64,000 nucleotides of DNA, taken from Flavobacterium sp. N1736. GTDB lineage: Bacteria; Bacteroidota; Bacteroidia; Flavobacteriales; Flavobacteriaceae. This document shows, one piece after another, positions 6,476-43,551 of this stretch. The translations under genes were made by a program, and so were the position numbers. The notes below the pieces were generated by a model. That model saw only the letters and a program-made list of their open reading frames with translations. It ran no database searches and was not told the DNA's origin. Location of the stretch: assembly GCF_025947065.1 (NCBI RefSeq), contig NZ_CP109994.1, positions 1,240,001-1,304,000 of the forward strand, written 5' to 3'. Within the stretch, counting starts at the first letter, position 1. Each line of letters opens with the position of its first letter.

Positions 6476-6780
6476 TTGTTTGAAGTTTCAGGTTTAAAGT
6501 TTCAGGTTTGAGGTTTCTTTTGTTTCAGGTTTCTTTTGTTTCAGGTTTCAGGTTTTGCGTTTAGTTTGTCATTTCGATCGAAGAGAGAAATCACACACGA
6601 AACTCGACAAAGATTGGCGACATACTATACGGAGCTTCTGGTGTGATTTCTCGTTCCTCGAAATGACAAAACTAGTAACTTTCAAAACCTGAAAATTGAA
6701 ACCTTTGCAGTTAATTAAACGTTCCAACAAACTTGAAACCTGAAACTTGAAACAAAAGAAACCTGAAACCGCAAACAAAA
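6476..6780. repeat. Degenerate inverted phrase repeat around palindrome B1
   Basis: The left part (6476-6560) repeats the phrase GTTTCAGGTTT several times. The right part (6685-6780) repeats the complement, GAAACCTGAAAC. Together they form a large imperfect inverted repeat with palindrome B1 at its centre. The spacer lies between two convergent genes and holds no coding sequence. Confidence 0.7.
6568..6667. repeat. Palindromic repeat family B, copy 1
   Basis: This 100-bp element starts GTCATTTCGATCGAAGAGAG and ends with the near complement …CCTCGAAATGAC. The arms are about 27 bp, and a middle section contains CGACAAAGATTGGCG. Related copies lie at 39039-39137 and 43452-43551. It encodes nothing. 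It sits between the convergent muramidase and pheT genes. Confidence 0.85.
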
Positions 6781-37244: not shown

Positions 37245-38936
37245 ATGTCAGACGATAAGAAAGTAATTTTCTCAATGCAAAAATTGAGTAAAACCTATCA
37301 GGGAGCAGACAAACCAGTACTTAAAAATATTTATTTGAGTTTCTTTTACGGAGCTAAAATTGGTATTTTAGGACTAAATGGTTCTGGTAAATCTTCACTT
37401 TTGAAGATTATTGCCGGAGTTGATAAAAATTATCAGGGAGATGTTGTTTTTCAACCGGGTTATACTGTTGGTTATTTAGAGCAAGAGCCTATTCTTGATG
37501 ATTCTAAAACAGTTATTGAAATTGTACGCGAAGGAGCTGCAGAAACTATGGCAGTTTTAGAAGAGTACAATCAAATTAATGATTTGTTTGGTCTTCCTGA
37601 ATATTATGAAGATCAGGATAAAATGGATAAGTTGATGGACCGTCAGGCAGCATTACAAGATAAAATTGATGCTCTTGGTGCTTGGGAAATCGATACGAAA
37701 CTTGAAATCGCAATGGATGCTTTGCGTACGCCGGAAGGTGATACGCCTATTAAAAACCTTTCTGGTGGAGAGCGTCGTCGTGTAGCTTTATGTCGTTTGT
37801 TATTGCAACAACCTGATGTACTGTTACTTGATGAGCCTACCAACCACTTAGATGCTGAGTCTGTACTTTGGCTAGAACAGCATTTAGCACAATATGCCGG
37901 AACTGTAATTGCAGTAACGCACGATAGATACTTCTTGGATAATGTTGCCGGTTGGATTCTTGAGTTAGATAGAGGAGAAGGTATTCCGTGGAAAGGGAAT
38001 TATTCATCCTGGTTAGACCAAAAATCAAGCCGTATGGCGCAAGAAGAAAAAGTAGCTTCTAAACGTAGAAAAACATTAGAGCGTGAGCTTGACTGGGTTC
38101 GTCAGGGAGCAAAAGGACGTCAAACCAAACAAAAAGCACGTTTACAGAATTACGATAAATTATTAAACGAAGATCAAAAACAACTGGATGAAAATCTGGA
38201 AATTTATATCCCGAATGGTCCACGTTTAGGTACAAATGTTATTGAAGCTAAAAATGTTGCTAAAGCTTTTGGAGACAAATTATTGTACGATAATTTGAAT
38301 TTCACTTTGCCACAAGCCGGAATTGTTGGAATTATTGGACCAAACGGTGCCGGTAAGTCAACCATTTTCAAAATGATTATGGGCGAGCAAAAAACAGATA
38401 GCGGAGAATTTTCAGTTGGTGAAACGGTAAAAATCGCTTATGTAGATCAGTCTCACTCTAATATTGATCCAAATAAATCTATTTGGGAAAACTTCGCCGA
38501 TGGTCAGGAATTGATTATGATGGGAGGAAAGCAAGTAAATTCAAGAGCTTACCTTTCACGTTTTAATTTTGGTGGAGGCGAGCAAAATAAAAAAGTTTCA
38601 ATGCTTTCCGGTGGAGAACGTAACCGTTTGCACCTTGCAATGACATTAAAAGAAGAAGGAAACGTACTTTTACTGGATGAGCCTACGAATGATTTAGATG
38701 TAAATACGCTTCGTGCCCTTGAAGAAGGTTTAGAGAATTTTGCTGGTTGTGCCGTAATTATTTCGCACGACAGATGGTTCTTAGACAGAATTTGTACACA
38801 CATTCTGGCTTTTGAAGGAGATTCTGAAGTTTATTATTTCGAAGGAGGTTTCTCTGAATACGAAGAAAATAAAAAGAAACGTTTAGGTGGTGATTTAACG
38901 CCAAAACGTTTGAAATACAGAAAGTTAATTAGATAA
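37245..38936 (+). CDS. ettA: Energy-dependent translational throttle protein EttA (ABC-F)
   Basis: This 563-aa cytoplasmic ABC-F ATPase binds the ribosomal E site and gates translation according to the ATP level. It has two nucleotide-binding domains: Walker A GILGLNGSGKSSLLKI with signature LSGGERRRVALCRLLL and Walker B LLLDEPTNHLDAES, then Walker A GIIGPNGAGKSTIFK with LSGGERNRLHLAMTL and LLLDEPTNDLD. The linker region (residues about 245-325, RRKTLERELDWVRQGAKGRQTKQKAR) is the EttA type. The N-terminal arm is a short insertion. Length and order match EttA rather than Uup or Vga-type resistance factors. Confidence 0.95.
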   Translation: MSDDKKVIFSMQKLSKTYQGADKPVLKNIYLSFFYGAKIGILGLNGSGKSSLLKIIAGVDKNYQGDVVFQPGYTVGYLEQEPILDDSKTVIEIVREGAAETMAVLEEYNQINDLFGLPEYYEDQDKMDKLMDRQAALQDKIDALGAWEIDTKLEIAMDALRTPEGDTPIKNLSGGERRRVALCRLLLQQPDVLLLDEPTNHLDAESVLWLEQHLAQYAGTVIAVTHDRYFLDNVAGWILELDRGEGIPWKGNYSSWLDQKSSRMAQEEKVASKRRKTLERELDWVRQGAKGRQTKQKARLQNYDKLLNEDQKQLDENLEIYIPNGPRLGTNVIEAKNVAKAFGDKLLYDNLNFTLPQAGIVGIIGPNGAGKSTIFKMIMGEQKTDSGEFSVGETVKIAYVDQSHSNIDPNKSIWENFADGQELIMMGGKQVNSRAYLSRFNFGGGEQNKKVSMLSGGERNRLHLAMTLKEEGNVLLLDEPTNDLDVNTLRALEEGLENFAGCAVIISHDRWFLDRICTHILAFEGDSEVYYFEGGFSEYEENKKKRLGGDLTPKRLKYRKLIR

Positions 38937-38954
38937 TAATCTGATAAATTTCAA

Positions 38955-38981
38955 TCCCGTCCCGAAGTTTCGGGATCGGGA
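38955..38981. repeat. Nested CCCGA hairpin
   Basis: TCCCGTCCCGAAGTTTCGGGATCGGGA (27 bases) folds on itself with one bulged base. A related core, TCCCGAAGCATCGGGA, occurs at 12503-12520. It lies just after the ettA stop, ahead of the terminator. Confidence 0.6.
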
Positions 38982-38983
38982 TA

Positions 38984-39030
38984 AAATCCCAAATTCCAAA
39001 TTGTCATGATTTGAATTTGGGATTTTTTTT
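38984..39030 (+). terminator. ettA terminator
   Basis: Arms AAATCCCAAATTC (38984-38996) and GAATTTGGGATTT (39013-39025) are perfectly complementary and run into a T tract to 39030. This is an intrinsic terminator for the plus strand. Confidence 0.75.
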
Positions 39031-39038
39031 ATTTTTTT

Positions 39039-39137
39039 GTCATTTCGACGTAAGGAGAAATCACACGCGTAACTCGCCAAAGATTAGATTTTCGTTGTGA
39101 AGTTTCTTGTGTGATTTCTCCCTTTGGTCGAAATGAC
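39039..39137. repeat. Palindromic repeat family B, copy 2
   Basis: This 99-bp element starts GTCATTTCGACGTAAGGAGA and ends …TCGAAATGAC, with an inner section carrying CGCCAAAGATTAG. It is about 100 bp like the other family B copies. It lies between the convergent ettA and DCC-family genes. A 16-bp sequence TGAATTTGGGATTTTT flanks it on both sides as a direct repeat (39012-39027 and 39145-39160). Confidence 0.85.
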
Positions 39138-39162
39138 AATATTGTGAATTTGGGATTTTTTA

Positions 39163-39605
39163 TTAAAGAAATTTTGCTTTCAATTCCGGAGTAGGAATCA
39201 TACAGCTTTCTTTTTTGCCATACCATTTATAACGGTTTTTAGCAATATAATCGTAAATGTAATTTCGCACTTTTTCAGGTAGAATTTTAAAAACAGAAAT
39301 GAAACTGTAAATCCCGCCTAAGTCTTCAGCGATTTCTATTACTGCCGAAGATTTATAATAATAAGCAACACCGGGATTATATAAAATAATACTATCAATT
39401 TTAGTTTGATCTACACCTATATAATTACAAATCTCAATTCCTATTTCGGATTGCAATGCCACAAAACGAAAAATATCTTTTTTGTCATGTTTAATGATAA
39501 ACTGAACTGCGTCGTTGCAAAGATTGCAAACGCCGTCGAAAAGGATTATTTTTTTCCGTCAGCAGTCTTTGCGAGGAACGAAGCAATCTCATTTTGGGTT
39601 TTCAT
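39163..39605 (-). CDS. DCC family thiol-disulfide oxidoreductase, N-terminal frameshift
   Basis: The main frame encodes KKIILFDGVCNLCNDAVQF, the DCC family signature with CNLC as the probable redox pair. It then runs through FVALQSEIGIEICNY and the C-terminal helices to 39163. That frame has no start: a TGA lies just before it. A different frame starts with ATG at 39603-39605 and reads MKTQNEIASFLAKTADGKK before stopping at the run of seven A bases near 39550-39556. Adding one A joins the two into a 147-aa protein. The first codons (NEIASFLAK) come from palindromic repeat family A. The gene is either frameshifted in this sequence or has lost its native start to the repeat. Confidence 0.55.
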
Positions 39606-39654
39606 AAATTGTGGTTACTTATTTTAGTGTGGTTGCTTCGTTCCTCGCAATGAC
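39565..39654. repeat. Palindromic repeat family A, unit 1
   Basis: This 90-bp element starts GTCTTTGCGAGGAACGAAGC and ends …TTCCTCGCAATGAC, with 24-bp arms that match at all but about two positions. It overlaps the 5' end of the DCC-family gene. Unit 2 follows after 13 bases. Confidence 0.9.
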
Positions 39655-39667
39655 CTTGCGTGCGTGC

Positions 39668-39754
39668 GTCTTTGCTAGGAACGAAGCAATCTCATGGGTT
39701 TTCATAAATTGTGGTTACTTATTTTAGTGTGGTTGCTTCGTTCCTCGCAATGAC
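39668..39754. repeat. Palindromic repeat family A, unit 2
   Basis: This is a second tandem copy of the same element, 87 bp, nearly identical to unit 1, with one change in the left arm (GCTAGG in place of GCGAGG) and a short deletion in the centre. The spacer CTTGCGTGCGTRY recurs after each unit, so the true tandem period is about 100-103 bp. Confidence 0.9.
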
Positions 39755-39767
39755 CTTGCGTGCGTAT

Positions 39768-39796
39768 GTCTTTGCGAGGAACGAAGCAATCTCATT
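39768..39796. repeat. Palindromic repeat family A, half unit 3
   Basis: Only the left arm, GTCTTTGCGAGGAACGAAGC and the next nine bases, is present before the sequence leaves the repeat. It ends 24 nt from the stop of the GIY-YIG gene. Confidence 0.85.
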
Positions 39797-39819
39797 ATGT
39801 ATTTCCGTTTCAATTGTAA

Positions 39820-40125
39820 TTACTCAAACATTATATTTTCAATTTCTTCGAATAAATCTTTCCAAGTTGGATTTATAGAACGAATCAAATCGTTTTTTGC
39901 CTCTCTTGATCCGGCTTTAATTTGCTTTTCTCTGGTTATTGCGTCTTCAATCCATTGAAATTGTTCGTAGTACACTAAAATATTTGTGTTATAACGAGCA
40001 GAGAATGACTTTGGATATTTTTTATTTTTATGCTCTGATATTCTTTTCGGCAGATTTGAAGTCACTCCTGTATAAACAACTGTTTGATATTTATTGGTAA
40101 TAATGTATACAAAACCTGGCTTCAT
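39820..40125 (-). CDS. GIY-YIG nuclease family protein
   Basis: This 101-aa protein is a stand-alone GIY-YIG domain. The first strand pair reads FVYIITNKYQTVVYTGVTSN, in which YI(x)VYTG is the GIY-YIG motif and Thr replaces Ile. The catalytic Arg is in LPKRISEHK. The helix with YYEQFQWIEDAITREKQIKAG carries the probable metal-binding Glu in TREKQIK. Length and order match the small UPF0213/YhbQ-like group. On its left lie two and a half copies of palindrome family A, and on its right one full copy (40148-40233), so the gene is enclosed by the repeats. It may be a nuclease linked to the spread or upkeep of those repeats. Confidence 0.9.
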   Translation of the reverse strand: MKPGFVYIITNKYQTVVYTGVTSNLPKRISEHKNKKYPKSFSARYNTNILVYYEQFQWIEDAITREKQIKAGSREAKNDLIRSINPTWKDLFEEIENIMFE

Positions 40126-40147
40126 GTATTTATCTTTTTAAGTTTGA

Positions 40148-40233
40148 GTCCTTGCGAGGAACGAAGCAATCTCACTACAATTAGACACAAAGTTTGATTT
40201 TGTTAGTGTGGTTGCTTCGTTCCTCGCAATGAC
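40148..40233. repeat. Palindromic repeat family A, unit 4
   Basis: This 86-bp copy starts GTCCTTGCGAGGAACGAAGC and ends …TTCCTCGCAATGAC. Its centre differs from units 1-2, while the arms are preserved. It lies 22 nt from the GIY-YIG start. Confidence 0.9.
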
Positions 40234-40480
40234 AAAGCTAAAGAATAAAACTATGTTTGTAGGTTTTTTATTATTATTTATTTTATCTATTAAAATGATA
40301 AAATGTATAAATTTTACAAATAAAAAATGGCTTTCATAAATTATTTTTAAGCACTTTTTAAAAAATATCCATCTTCATTGTTGTCTTTTATAAAGATCTT
40401 TGTTTAAATCGCTTTATTTTAATTTTCGACTAAATTTAAGCTTTTATAACAACTGAAAACTGCGACAGAATACTGAAAAC

Positions 40481-42646
40481 TTATTTCTTCCCAACTTCTA
40501 CAAATTCCAATTCATCTAAACTTACTTTCGAAGTAAAAATGCCGTAATTAACTGTTGCCTTATTTTTTTCGATGGAATCAATACTTCCAACAGATCTTCC
40601 GTCTAGCATTCTTACCCGATCGCCAACTTTTAAAACAGGTCTTGGTTTTTCGATAACAGGTTTCAGTTTCTTTTCTTTTTTCTCTTTTCGAATTTCTTCA
40701 ACCTGAACAGAAACTTCTGCAATAACTTCTTTTTTCTTTTCGATTATAGCTTTTGTTTCTTTTGGAGTTGCTTTTTTACGTTTTGAATTTTCAATTTCTA
40801 TGATTTTCAAAAATTCTCCAATAAGTTCTTTTTTATTTTTATTGTTGAAATATTTTTCAGAAATATCTTCGATTTTCTGACCTATGTAAATTGTCTTTTG
40901 GTTGCTGTCGTATAATTCCTGATAGCTTTCCAGTTTCTGTTTGATTTTTACATTGATGTTTTCCATTTTTTTGCTTTCTTCACGCGCTCTAGTTTCTTCT
41001 TCTTTAAGATTAATAGAAGTTTTTTCTAATTTTGAACGCTCTTTTTGAAGTGTTGCTATGGTTTTATCAAAACGAACTTTACCAACTTCGATTTTTTTCT
41101 TGGCACGATTTATCAATCCAAACGGTATTCCATTTTTTAATGCGACTTCAAAAGTAAAAGAACTTCCTGCCTGACCTAAAGCCAGCTTGTACATTGGTTC
41201 AAGCGATTTTTCGTCAAACATCATATTGGCATTTGTAGCAAAAGGCAATTCGTTAGCCAGAATTTTCAAGTTTGAATAATGCGTTGTAATAATTCCGAAA
41301 GCTTCACGATGGTAAAATTCTTCTAAGAAAATTTCAGCCAAAGCGCCACCTAATTCAGGATCTGAACCTGTACCAAATTCATCAATTAAAAACATGGTTT
41401 TCTTGTTGCATTTTTTCAAGAAGTAATTCATGTTTTTTAATCGGTAACTATATGTACTTAAATGATTTTCAATGGATTGATTGTCTCCAATATCTGTTAA
41501 GATTCTATCAAACAAGAAAGTTTCGCTGCGTTCATGAACCGGAATCAACATTCCTGATTGTAACATCAATTGTAATAAACCAACTGTTTTAAGGGAAATT
41601 GTTTTTCCTCCGGCATTTGGTCCCGAAATTACAATGATTCGGTTATCTTGTTTTAATTCAATTGTTTGCGGATGCGTAATTTCGTTTTTCTGTTTATTGT
41701 TCAGATACAAAATAGGATGATATGCTTCTCTAAAAAACAATCTTCTTTCTTCGGTAATTGTGGGTAAAATTCCGTTGATTCTGTTTGCGTATTTTGCTTT
41801 TCCGGCAACGACATCAATATCACTTAGAAACTCCTGATATTCAATTAGTAAAGGTAAATACGGACGAATCTGATTTGATAATTGTTTTAGAATTCGGGTA
41901 ATTTCTTCTTTTTCTTCGTATTCAAGATTGGCTAATTCTCTGGAATATTGCAAAGTAGCTTCCGGTTCAATATAAGCAATGCTTCCGGTTTTAGAACTTC
42001 CTAAAATAGAACCTTTTACTTTTCGACGATACATTGCTAAAACGGCTAAAACTCTACGGTTTTGCACAAAACTTTCCTTGATATCATCCAGATAACCGAG
42101 ACTGTTATTGTGAGAAAGTGCTACTCCAAAACTTTGATTTACTTTGCCGCGAACGATATTCATATTCTGGCGAATACTTAAAAGAGCAGGCGAAGCGTTG
42201 TCTTTTATTTCTCCATATTTGTCTACAATGGCGTCAATTAGAGTTACAATATCTTTTGTATATTCAACTCTTGAAGCTCTTGCGTTTAAGTTTGGATAAT
42301 AGTCATCAAATTTTTTTAAGAAATTCAGCAAGAAATTTGATGTTGACGAAAGTGTTGCAATTTTCCTAAAACTGCCTACTTCCAGAAAACTATCTTCTAT
42401 TGCTAAAAACTTGATTTCGTGCGTTATGGCATCAAATCCGTGATTGGGAATTGCGTTATTATTTTGAAAAGACGAAACATATTCTGATGTCTGCATTAAA
42501 GCCTGCATCAAAGTTTCTTTATCTCTAAATGGTGTTATTTGTAAAGCTTTTTCCTTTCCAATATCTGTATTACAGCCTGCCGAAATGGTTTCTAGCACTG
42601 TTGGAAATTGTAAATCTTGTAATGTTTTTTCGGTAATACTAATCAT
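40481..42646 (-). CDS. mutS2: MutS2-family DNA-binding ATPase
   Basis: This 721-aa protein resembles the MutS2 branch of the MutS family, which acts on recombination or collided ribosomes rather than mismatches. The order is an N-terminal helical core (ISITEKTLQDLQFPTVLETI), a clamp, and then the ATPase. Walker A is ISGPNAGGKTISLKTVGLLQ near residue 340, Walker B is MFLIDEFGTGSDPELGGALA near residue 419, and the composite site reads THYSNLK. A long coiled coil follows (residues 515-600). The C-terminal end (VLKVGDRVRMLDGRSVGSI) is a KOW-like segment. The Smr nuclease domain found in many MutS2 proteins is absent, which is usual in Flavobacterium. Confidence 0.9.
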   Translation of the reverse strand: MISITEKTLQDLQFPTVLETISAGCNTDIGKEKALQITPFRDKETLMQALMQTSEYVSSFQNNNAIPNHGFDAITHEIKFLAIEDSFLEVGSFRKIATLSSTSNFLLNFLKKFDDYYPNLNARASRVEYTKDIVTLIDAIVDKYGEIKDNASPALLSIRQNMNIVRGKVNQSFGVALSHNNSLGYLDDIKESFVQNRRVLAVLAMYRRKVKGSILGSSKTGSIAYIEPEATLQYSRELANLEYEEKEEITRILKQLSNQIRPYLPLLIEYQEFLSDIDVVAGKAKYANRINGILPTITEERRLFFREAYHPILYLNNKQKNEITHPQTIELKQDNRIIVISGPNAGGKTISLKTVGLLQLMLQSGMLIPVHERSETFLFDRILTDIGDNQSIENHLSTYSYRLKNMNYFLKKCNKKTMFLIDEFGTGSDPELGGALAEIFLEEFYHREAFGIITTHYSNLKILANELPFATNANMMFDEKSLEPMYKLALGQAGSSFTFEVALKNGIPFGLINRAKKKIEVGKVRFDKTIATLQKERSKLEKTSINLKEEETRAREESKKMENINVKIKQKLESYQELYDSNQKTIYIGQKIEDISEKYFNNKNKKELIGEFLKIIEIENSKRKKATPKETKAIIEKKKEVIAEVSVQVEEIRKEKKEKKLKPVIEKPRPVLKVGDRVRMLDGRSVGSIDSIEKNKATVNYGIFTSKVSLDELEFVEVGKK

Positions 42647-43451: not shown

Positions 43452-43551
43452 GTCATTTCGACGTAAGGAGAAATCATACAAGTGATTCCGTTCCTAAAAG
43501 CGCTAATCTTTGTCGAGTTTCTAGTGTGATTTCTCCTTACGTCGAAATGAC
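43452..43551. repeat. Palindromic repeat family B, copy 3
   Basis: This 100-bp element starts GTCATTTCGACGTAAGGAGA and ends with its complement …CGTCGAAATGAC; the arms match at almost every position. The inner section contains GCGCTAATCTTTGTCGAG. It lies between the convergent ung and DUF4258-like genes. Confidence 0.88.

Follow-up and report, generated by a model that had tools for sequence, protein, structure and literature searches.

The small GIY-YIG nuclease gene that we analyzed in Flavobacterium sp. N1736 is paired with the palindromic repeat that encloses it, and its product is probably a sequence-specific nuclease acting on a cognate hairpin, namely the GTC-tagged arm of the palindrome, which it would recognize in single-stranded form. 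The gene lies in a window of 64,000 nucleotides (the whole stretch of DNA that was analyzed) within a 5.1 Mb genome that consists of one contig. By comparing homologous loci within the genus and beyond, we observed the pairing of gene and repeat, its specificity and its breadth, along with purifying selection on the gene and differences between genomes in whether an orthologous site is occupied. Mobility or linkage without binding could likewise produce co-location and co-divergence.

The palindromes at the locus are 86 to 90 bp long (Table 1). Direct reading and a repeat search confirmed the description given in the earlier note, with two and a half copies on the stop side of the gene and one full copy 22 nt from its start codon. 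Within the 64-kb window, the 22-nt arm TTGCGAGGAACGAAGCAATCTC is matched 7 times when up to 3 mismatches are allowed, exclusively at the GIY-YIG locus, compared to 0 matches in 100 shuffles; the palindrome copies enclosing the gene are real and far beyond chance. When folded as one strand, full palindrome 3 reaches -28.7 kcal/mol (z -9.3). The differing centers that the earlier note had pointed out were also borne out: both the length and the sequence of the spacer vary among 11 palindromes of this genome (3 at the window locus), which were collected by an 18-nt arm core in which at most 2 substitutions were allowed; this choice accounts in part for the constancy of the arms. The open reading frame on the start side of the gene is, presumably, mutS2.

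Table 1. Coordinates of the GIY-YIG gene, the surrounding palindromes and the neighboring open reading frames in the window
Feature	Coordinates	Strand	Details
99-aa ORF	39163-39462		neighbor, stop side of GIY-YIG gene
Full palindrome 1	39565-39654	none	+ arm 39565-39591, - arm 39628-39654; direct reading and repeat search
Full palindrome 2	39668-39754	none	+ arm 39668-39694 (1 substitution), - arm 39728-39754
Half palindrome, single arm	39768-39794	+	25 nt past GIY-YIG stop codon
GIY-YIG single-domain nuclease gene (putative), 101 aa	39820-40125	-	from ORF list
Full palindrome 3	40148-40233	none	+ arm 40148-40174, - arm 40207-40233; 22 nt from start codon
Presumed mutS2	40481-42646		neighbor, start side of GIY-YIG gene

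The window contains three more GTC-tagged palindromes, with ATTTC/GAAAT stems (39039-39137, 43452-43551 and 6568-6667), none of which directly flanks a GIY-YIG gene. An Rfam search of positions 38900-40400 yielded 24 matches up to E 1, all below the gathering scores and 22 of them to microRNA families; we attribute them to the palindromes alone. A group I intron homing endonuclease was rejected as an identity for the gene: the match to TIGR01453 scores 22.4 bits, below the cut-off of 56.05, Rfam reported no intron family in the same interval, and the open reading frame is stand-alone and intergenic. The one PADLOC hit, to a candidate system, was weak (E 0.0037).

The arm unit consists of GTC, a stem, a loop, the complementary stem and a tail, and a palindrome is formed by two arms in inverted orientation, with GTC on the outer sides. 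In the window family, GTC is followed by an ATTGC-GAGGAACGAA-GCAAT stem-loop. The genome carries 119 such arms (63 forward and 56 reverse, up to 3 mismatches), compared to 0 for a reversed-pattern control, and 110 arms with the ATTTC stem (two loop types pooled). Among 291 recurring GTC-27mers, picked without a hairpin requirement, 94 have a perfect 5-bp stem right after GTC, compared to 2, 13 and 7 at neighboring offsets and 2.45 in shuffles; among the remainder are 27mers whose stem is imperfect and GTC words in a different phase. The two sides of the stem vary together (ATTGC/GCAAT, ATTTC/GAAAT, ATTCC/GGAAT, ATCCT/AGGAT, ATGCT/AGCAT), which argues that the recognized object is the folded strand. 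Folded in silico, a lone ATTGC arm forms a weak hairpin (-2.4 kcal/mol, with 46 of 200 shuffles equally good).

On the whole, these arms resemble the CGTC-tagged REPs, which, according to a 2013 survey, carry the tag CGTC, often TGTC, and a stem that starts with complementary AT, include the Neisseria dRS3 and were reported from Bacteroidetes (PMC3733652). Across the genus, 88 of the 94 stems begin with AT, and T precedes GTC at 77, 64 and 59% for the three nearest bases (128 element ends, 64 distinct palindromes); at the window locus, the tags are mixed (AGTC, CGTC, TGTC or GGTC), with the four + arms beginning with TT or CT. The dimensions differ, given that the same source assigns stems of 8-9 bp and loops of 4-5 nt to CGTC-tagged REPs (PMC3733652), whereas the same-genus arms have 5-bp stems and loops of mostly 9-10 nt. 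A T run (at least 6 of 8 bases on one side) precedes 19 of the 64 elements, compared to 5 of 60 control positions; these runs are perhaps terminator tracts that serve as insertion sites.

Domain content, predicted fold and conserved residues place the window protein in the GIY-YIG nuclease superfamily. Its only Pfam matches are GIY-YIG (PF01541, E 2.7e-16) and T5orf172, with none to a Y1 (HUH) transposase. The structural model is an alignment-based AlphaFold prediction (mean pLDDT 92.6), which replaced a poor one made from the single sequence (pLDDT 47.6). UPF0213 GIY-YIG proteins (PDB 1zg2 and 1ywl) are the nearest solved structures by profile, and 1zg2 is also the best by fold (E 3.1e-4, TM 0.55), with weaker matches to Slx1 and UvrC (E 0.036 or worse). 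Among 41 aligned sequences, including the window protein, Y7, Y18, G20, E66 and N85 are invariant and R28 is conserved in at least 90%; we take these to be the active-site residues. The median dN/dS ratio of 0.065 in 51 of 55 pairs (11 genes), a rough value because dS is often near or above 1 in the pairs inspected, indicates strong purifying selection; in some relatives, the gene contains in-frame stops.

The genome encodes six PF01541 matches. One paralog (L002), 46% identical to the window protein, adjoins an ATTTC/GAAAT palindrome, and 131 bp downstream of another (L004), 37% identical, lies a palindrome that shares the ATTTC stem but has a different loop. Because these three small GIY-YIG genes each have their own repeat nearby, the test was widened to the genus. 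The gene of the latter paralog (L004, 1350-1845; near 4348305 of the genome) lies beside tRNA-Phe as if inserted there, with a stretch containing the end of the tRNA and its terminator-like hairpin duplicated on the two sides of the gene.

Loci were chosen by protein similarity alone, and matches occurred in at least 95 of 121 genomes among the matches listed. We used 30 loci (L037-L066, L037 being the window gene), 60 middle-scoring loci and 20 of the lowest class; L002 was added and L004 left out of the flanking and stem-agreement counts. The rest of the listed matches, of which many lay on small contigs, did not enter the analysis. The resulting 91 loci were split at 106 bits against the window protein into 27 upper and 64 middle ones, the upper group being slightly wider than the 26-genome orthologous clade discussed below. 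The earlier note had suggested testing whether homologs are flanked by the repeat more often than random genes, and they are: of the 91 loci, 78 have an arm within 250 bp on at least one side and 50 have one on each side, as opposed to 652 of 3,820 (17%) and 27 of 3,820 (0.7%) random blocks of the same genus, and 43 and 0 of 216 random open reading frames of at least 200 aa. The values are similar for the upper loci (23 of 27, both sides 17 of 27) and the middle ones (55 of 64, both sides 33 of 64), and the fraction of flanks with an arm falls from 106/182 at 0-100 bp to 12/178 at 500-600 bp. The 17% of random blocks with an arm results from a permissive detector, so some one-sided arm matches at the loci will be chance; 13 of the 91 loci have no arm by this detector. 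In a distinct low-scoring GIY-YIG clade of the genus (L127-L146, 95-115 aa), arms were found at only 2 of 20 loci, on both sides at 1; this arm-less clade may belong with UPF0213.

By sequence comparison, arm type tracks protein type, even among paralogs of one genome. The arm stem of a gene agrees with that of the nearest protein in another genome at a rate of 0.77 (78 genes in 53 genomes), whereas global shuffling gives 0.22 (0 of 2,000). With shuffling confined to individual genomes, the agreement is 0.70 against 0.34 (0 of 5,000; 44 genes, from the 19 genomes that hold two or more). After the exclusion of 119 homologous-neighborhood pairs, it is still 0.61 against 0.31 (1 of 5,000 shuffles), so shared descent of the neighborhood is not the explanation. 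With rising protein identity, stem agreement takes the values 0.24 (30-39%, 41 pairs), 0.06, 0.07, 0.36, 0.30, 0.64 and 0.82 (at least 90%, 13 pairs). Flanking, copy number and the match between arm and protein all point to recognition, the first half of the earlier suggestion that the protein recognizes or processes the palindrome. These data also bear on the scenario in which the repeats, dependent on another enzyme, and the GIY-YIG genes simply hitch-hike, piling up at the same permissive intergenic sites: different repeat families do occupy the same intergenic sites in relatives, and one genome (G103) is repeat-rich without the gene, but the arm-protein match within genomes and the lack of arms at 18 of the 20 loci of the other GIY-YIG clade of the genus make this scenario highly improbable.

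The number of arms follows the presence of the gene to a considerable extent. Across the 121 genomes, the median count of ATTGC arms is 16 in the 26 genomes with the orthologous clade and 0 in the other 95 (p 2.6e-10), that of ATTTC arms is 6 in the 63 genomes with other flanked-type genes versus 0 (p 2.8e-9), and ATTGC arms are mildly elevated with other flanked-type genes (median 3 versus 0.5, p 0.0053), all these p values ignoring relatedness and genome size. ATTTC arms are not tied to the window-protein clade (p 0.17, 121 genomes). Because ATTGC arms also rise with other flanked-type genes, copy number alone is not clean evidence. The relation that the earlier note proposed to test, with arm count following gene presence, holds for the medians but not for every genome, with at least 10 ATTGC arms in 9 of the 95 genomes that lack the clade and at most 2 in 5 of the 26 that possess it. 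Abundant repeats without the gene, which had been named as evidence against the proposed link, were found in part, chiefly in two genomes. One of these (G103, one contig) has 58 ATTGC and 133 ATTTC arms, and a profile search identified only four distant homologs with arm-less flanks; in the other (G099, 40 ATTGC arms), the profile search detected no homolog. These arm-rich genomes without a close homolog indicate that the repeats can outlast the gene or do without it; the gene may have been lost there recently, or help may come in trans.

Comparison of orthologous sites shows that both gene and repeats come and go. The gene is present at the mutS2 site in 8 of 30 loci (the window genome, G114, G079, G052, G102, G008, G004 and G066), together with arms in the first five of these; the site lacks the gene in the close relatives G054, G075 and G103, with other or decayed repeats in its place, and the orthologous gene is elsewhere by coordinates in G051, G110, G017 and G005. 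We also searched 10 relatives for three other element sites and aligned two of these (L014 and L031). At the intergenic site L014, whole palindromes are present or absent among relatives, with three repeat families in one stretch: the window genome has an ATTGC palindrome there, G114 and G103 have palindromes of other families, and G054, G052 and G102 have no palindrome. At L031, the palindrome is absent in G114 and G075, the only anchorable ones of six loci tried. The arms around the genes are oriented: among same-genus loci with an arm within 150 bp, the nearest upstream arm is + in 40 of 56 and the nearest downstream arm is - in 45 of 65. An inverted arm pair spans the gene at 42 of the 91 loci, with the same stem in 37 of the 42.

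The orientation of the arms, the gene-spanning pairs, and the variable occupancy of the mutS2 and L014 sites are the features expected of a mobile element similar to RAYT/REPIN, with the GIY-YIG protein as the mobility enzyme, the arm-gene-arm unit as the autonomous form and the short palindrome as its miniature derivative. We consider this origin possible but rather doubtful, and we extend the same reserve to the implied route, in which a nick made by the nuclease in an exposed arm leads to the insertion of a copy through host repair or replication. Flanking direct repeats are absent at 56 of the 64 palindromes (the longest tested, 8 nt, occurs at 4 of 64, with 0.2 expected), no transposition event was seen among the orthologous sites compared, and, in the multi-phylum set (the best 80 of at least 583 matches), an inverted pair spans the gene at only 27 of 80 loci, with a shared stem in 10 of the 27. 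Moreover, GIY-YIG enzymes hydrolyze DNA, and no joining activity is known for them. Mobility is compatible with the cognate-nuclease explanation that we favor.

The association extends far beyond the genus. A profile search identified relatives, including the arm-less kind, in 124 of 198 Bacteroidota genomes. In a scan of named genomes, the best 80 of at least 583 pattern matches, taken as multi-phylum loci, included some from Alpha-, Beta- and Gammaproteobacteria, Fibrobacter, Chloroflexi and Patescibacteria; among these best 80, arms are present on both sides at 35 loci, on one side at 28 and on neither at 17. The pairing is accordingly not particular to Bacteroidota, and the Bacteroidota counterpart pictured in the earlier note does not hold in that form, with 63 of these best 80 of at least 583 matches having an arm nearby in many phyla. 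In the same best 80, the fraction of flanks with an arm falls from 84/157 at 0-100 bp to 11/147 at 500-600 bp, the nearest upstream arm is + in 37 of 47 and the nearest downstream arm - in 34 of 40, and, for the 63 with an arm, stem agreement is 0.35 against 0.155 (0 of 5,000 shuffles), a value not corrected for relatedness. Eight Bradyrhizobium loci among the best 80 of at least 583 matches are mostly armless, with a clear pair only at L268. The Neisseria gonorrhoeae homolog is 41% identical to the window protein (E 3e-22, single comparison) and is embedded in CGTCATTCCCGC...GCGGGAAT repeats, which we take to be of the dRS3 type (a name after PMC3733652). Elsewhere, dRS3-type arms have an 8-bp stem and a 4-nt loop, and two GIY-YIG genes of the genus (L085 in G065 and L121 in G082) lie beside dRS3-like arms.

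This homolog is a candidate for the published ssn gene. The Ssn family of Chenal and colleagues (Veyrier laboratory, 2025) reportedly comprises site-specific GIY-YIG nucleases that cut particular single-stranded targets, with the Neisseria enzyme modulating DNA uptake and transformation; the principle of the pairing has probably been published in this form. The window system resembles Ssn in the small single-domain GIY-YIG protein, the target repeated through the genome, the cognate repeat occurring both near the gene and genome-wide (7 of the 119 arms surround the window gene), and, should the gonococcal candidate prove to be ssn, the similarity to a protein encoded among dRS3-type repeats. 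The differences are that the window repeat has another stem and loop, that cleavage is, in the window case, our inference, and that, in one genome, three GIY-YIG genes go with three different repeat families, two of the genes being flanked by their repeat and the third lying 131 bp from it.

The reported role of the Neisseria enzyme in transformation, the strong purifying selection on the gene and the persistence of repeats without it in two genomes (G103 and G099) would fit a housekeeping or regulatory use, with the nuclease removing or cutting repeat hairpins in replication or DNA uptake and other forces maintaining the repeats. Taken alone, such a use seems unlikely because it leaves unexplained the location of genes between arms and the arm counts that track gene presence.

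The system shares with REPINs and RAYT a short hairpin REP, inverted pairs, extragenic location and a gene flanked by REPs, but the enzyme is a predicted GIY-YIG protein rather than a Y1 transposase, and the tag is GTC rather than GTAG, so that, judged by these features, it is not a RAYT/REPIN member. According to the 2013 survey, CGTC-type REPs had no dedicated transposase (PMC3733652), and REP counts for two Flavobacterium genomes are tabulated in PMC12306157; a term search of both texts returned no occurrence of "GIY". Our literature search, which covered mostly openly licensed papers, yielded no paper joining GIY-YIG genes with REPs and no report of several orthogonal nuclease-repeat pairs in one genome.

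Under the cognate-nuclease explanation, the target would be the palindrome arm, that is, the GTC tag and the immediately following short stem-loop, read while the DNA is single-stranded, and gene and repeat would constitute a cognate pair. The palindrome, with its two inverted arms and free spacer, would represent the dispersed, non-autonomous form, and the gene between arms the form encoding the enzyme. The protein would bind and nick the arm as a single-stranded hairpin, during replication or DNA uptake. Nicking followed by repair might also spread the palindromes, in which case arm-gene-arm would be the autonomous form.

These findings tie the CGTC-type REPs, for which the 2013 survey had no known enzyme (PMC3733652), family by family to small GIY-YIG genes, and reveal several apparently orthogonal nuclease-repeat pairs within one genus. 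The less explored aspects are the layout, which resembles that of mobile elements, and the tie to CGTC-type REPs. Tentatively, and with more doubt than confidence, we suggest that GIY-YIG genes could be the dedicated, co-diversifying partners of CGTC-type REPs across phyla. They would then form a second REP/REPIN system, independent of the first, with a hydrolytic nuclease in place of the RAYT transposase, an autonomous arm-gene-arm unit and several orthogonal pairs coexisting on a chromosome. If confirmed, the link would help explain the origin and spread of CGTC-type repeats and would provide a natural series of single-stranded DNA nucleases with differing sequence specificities.
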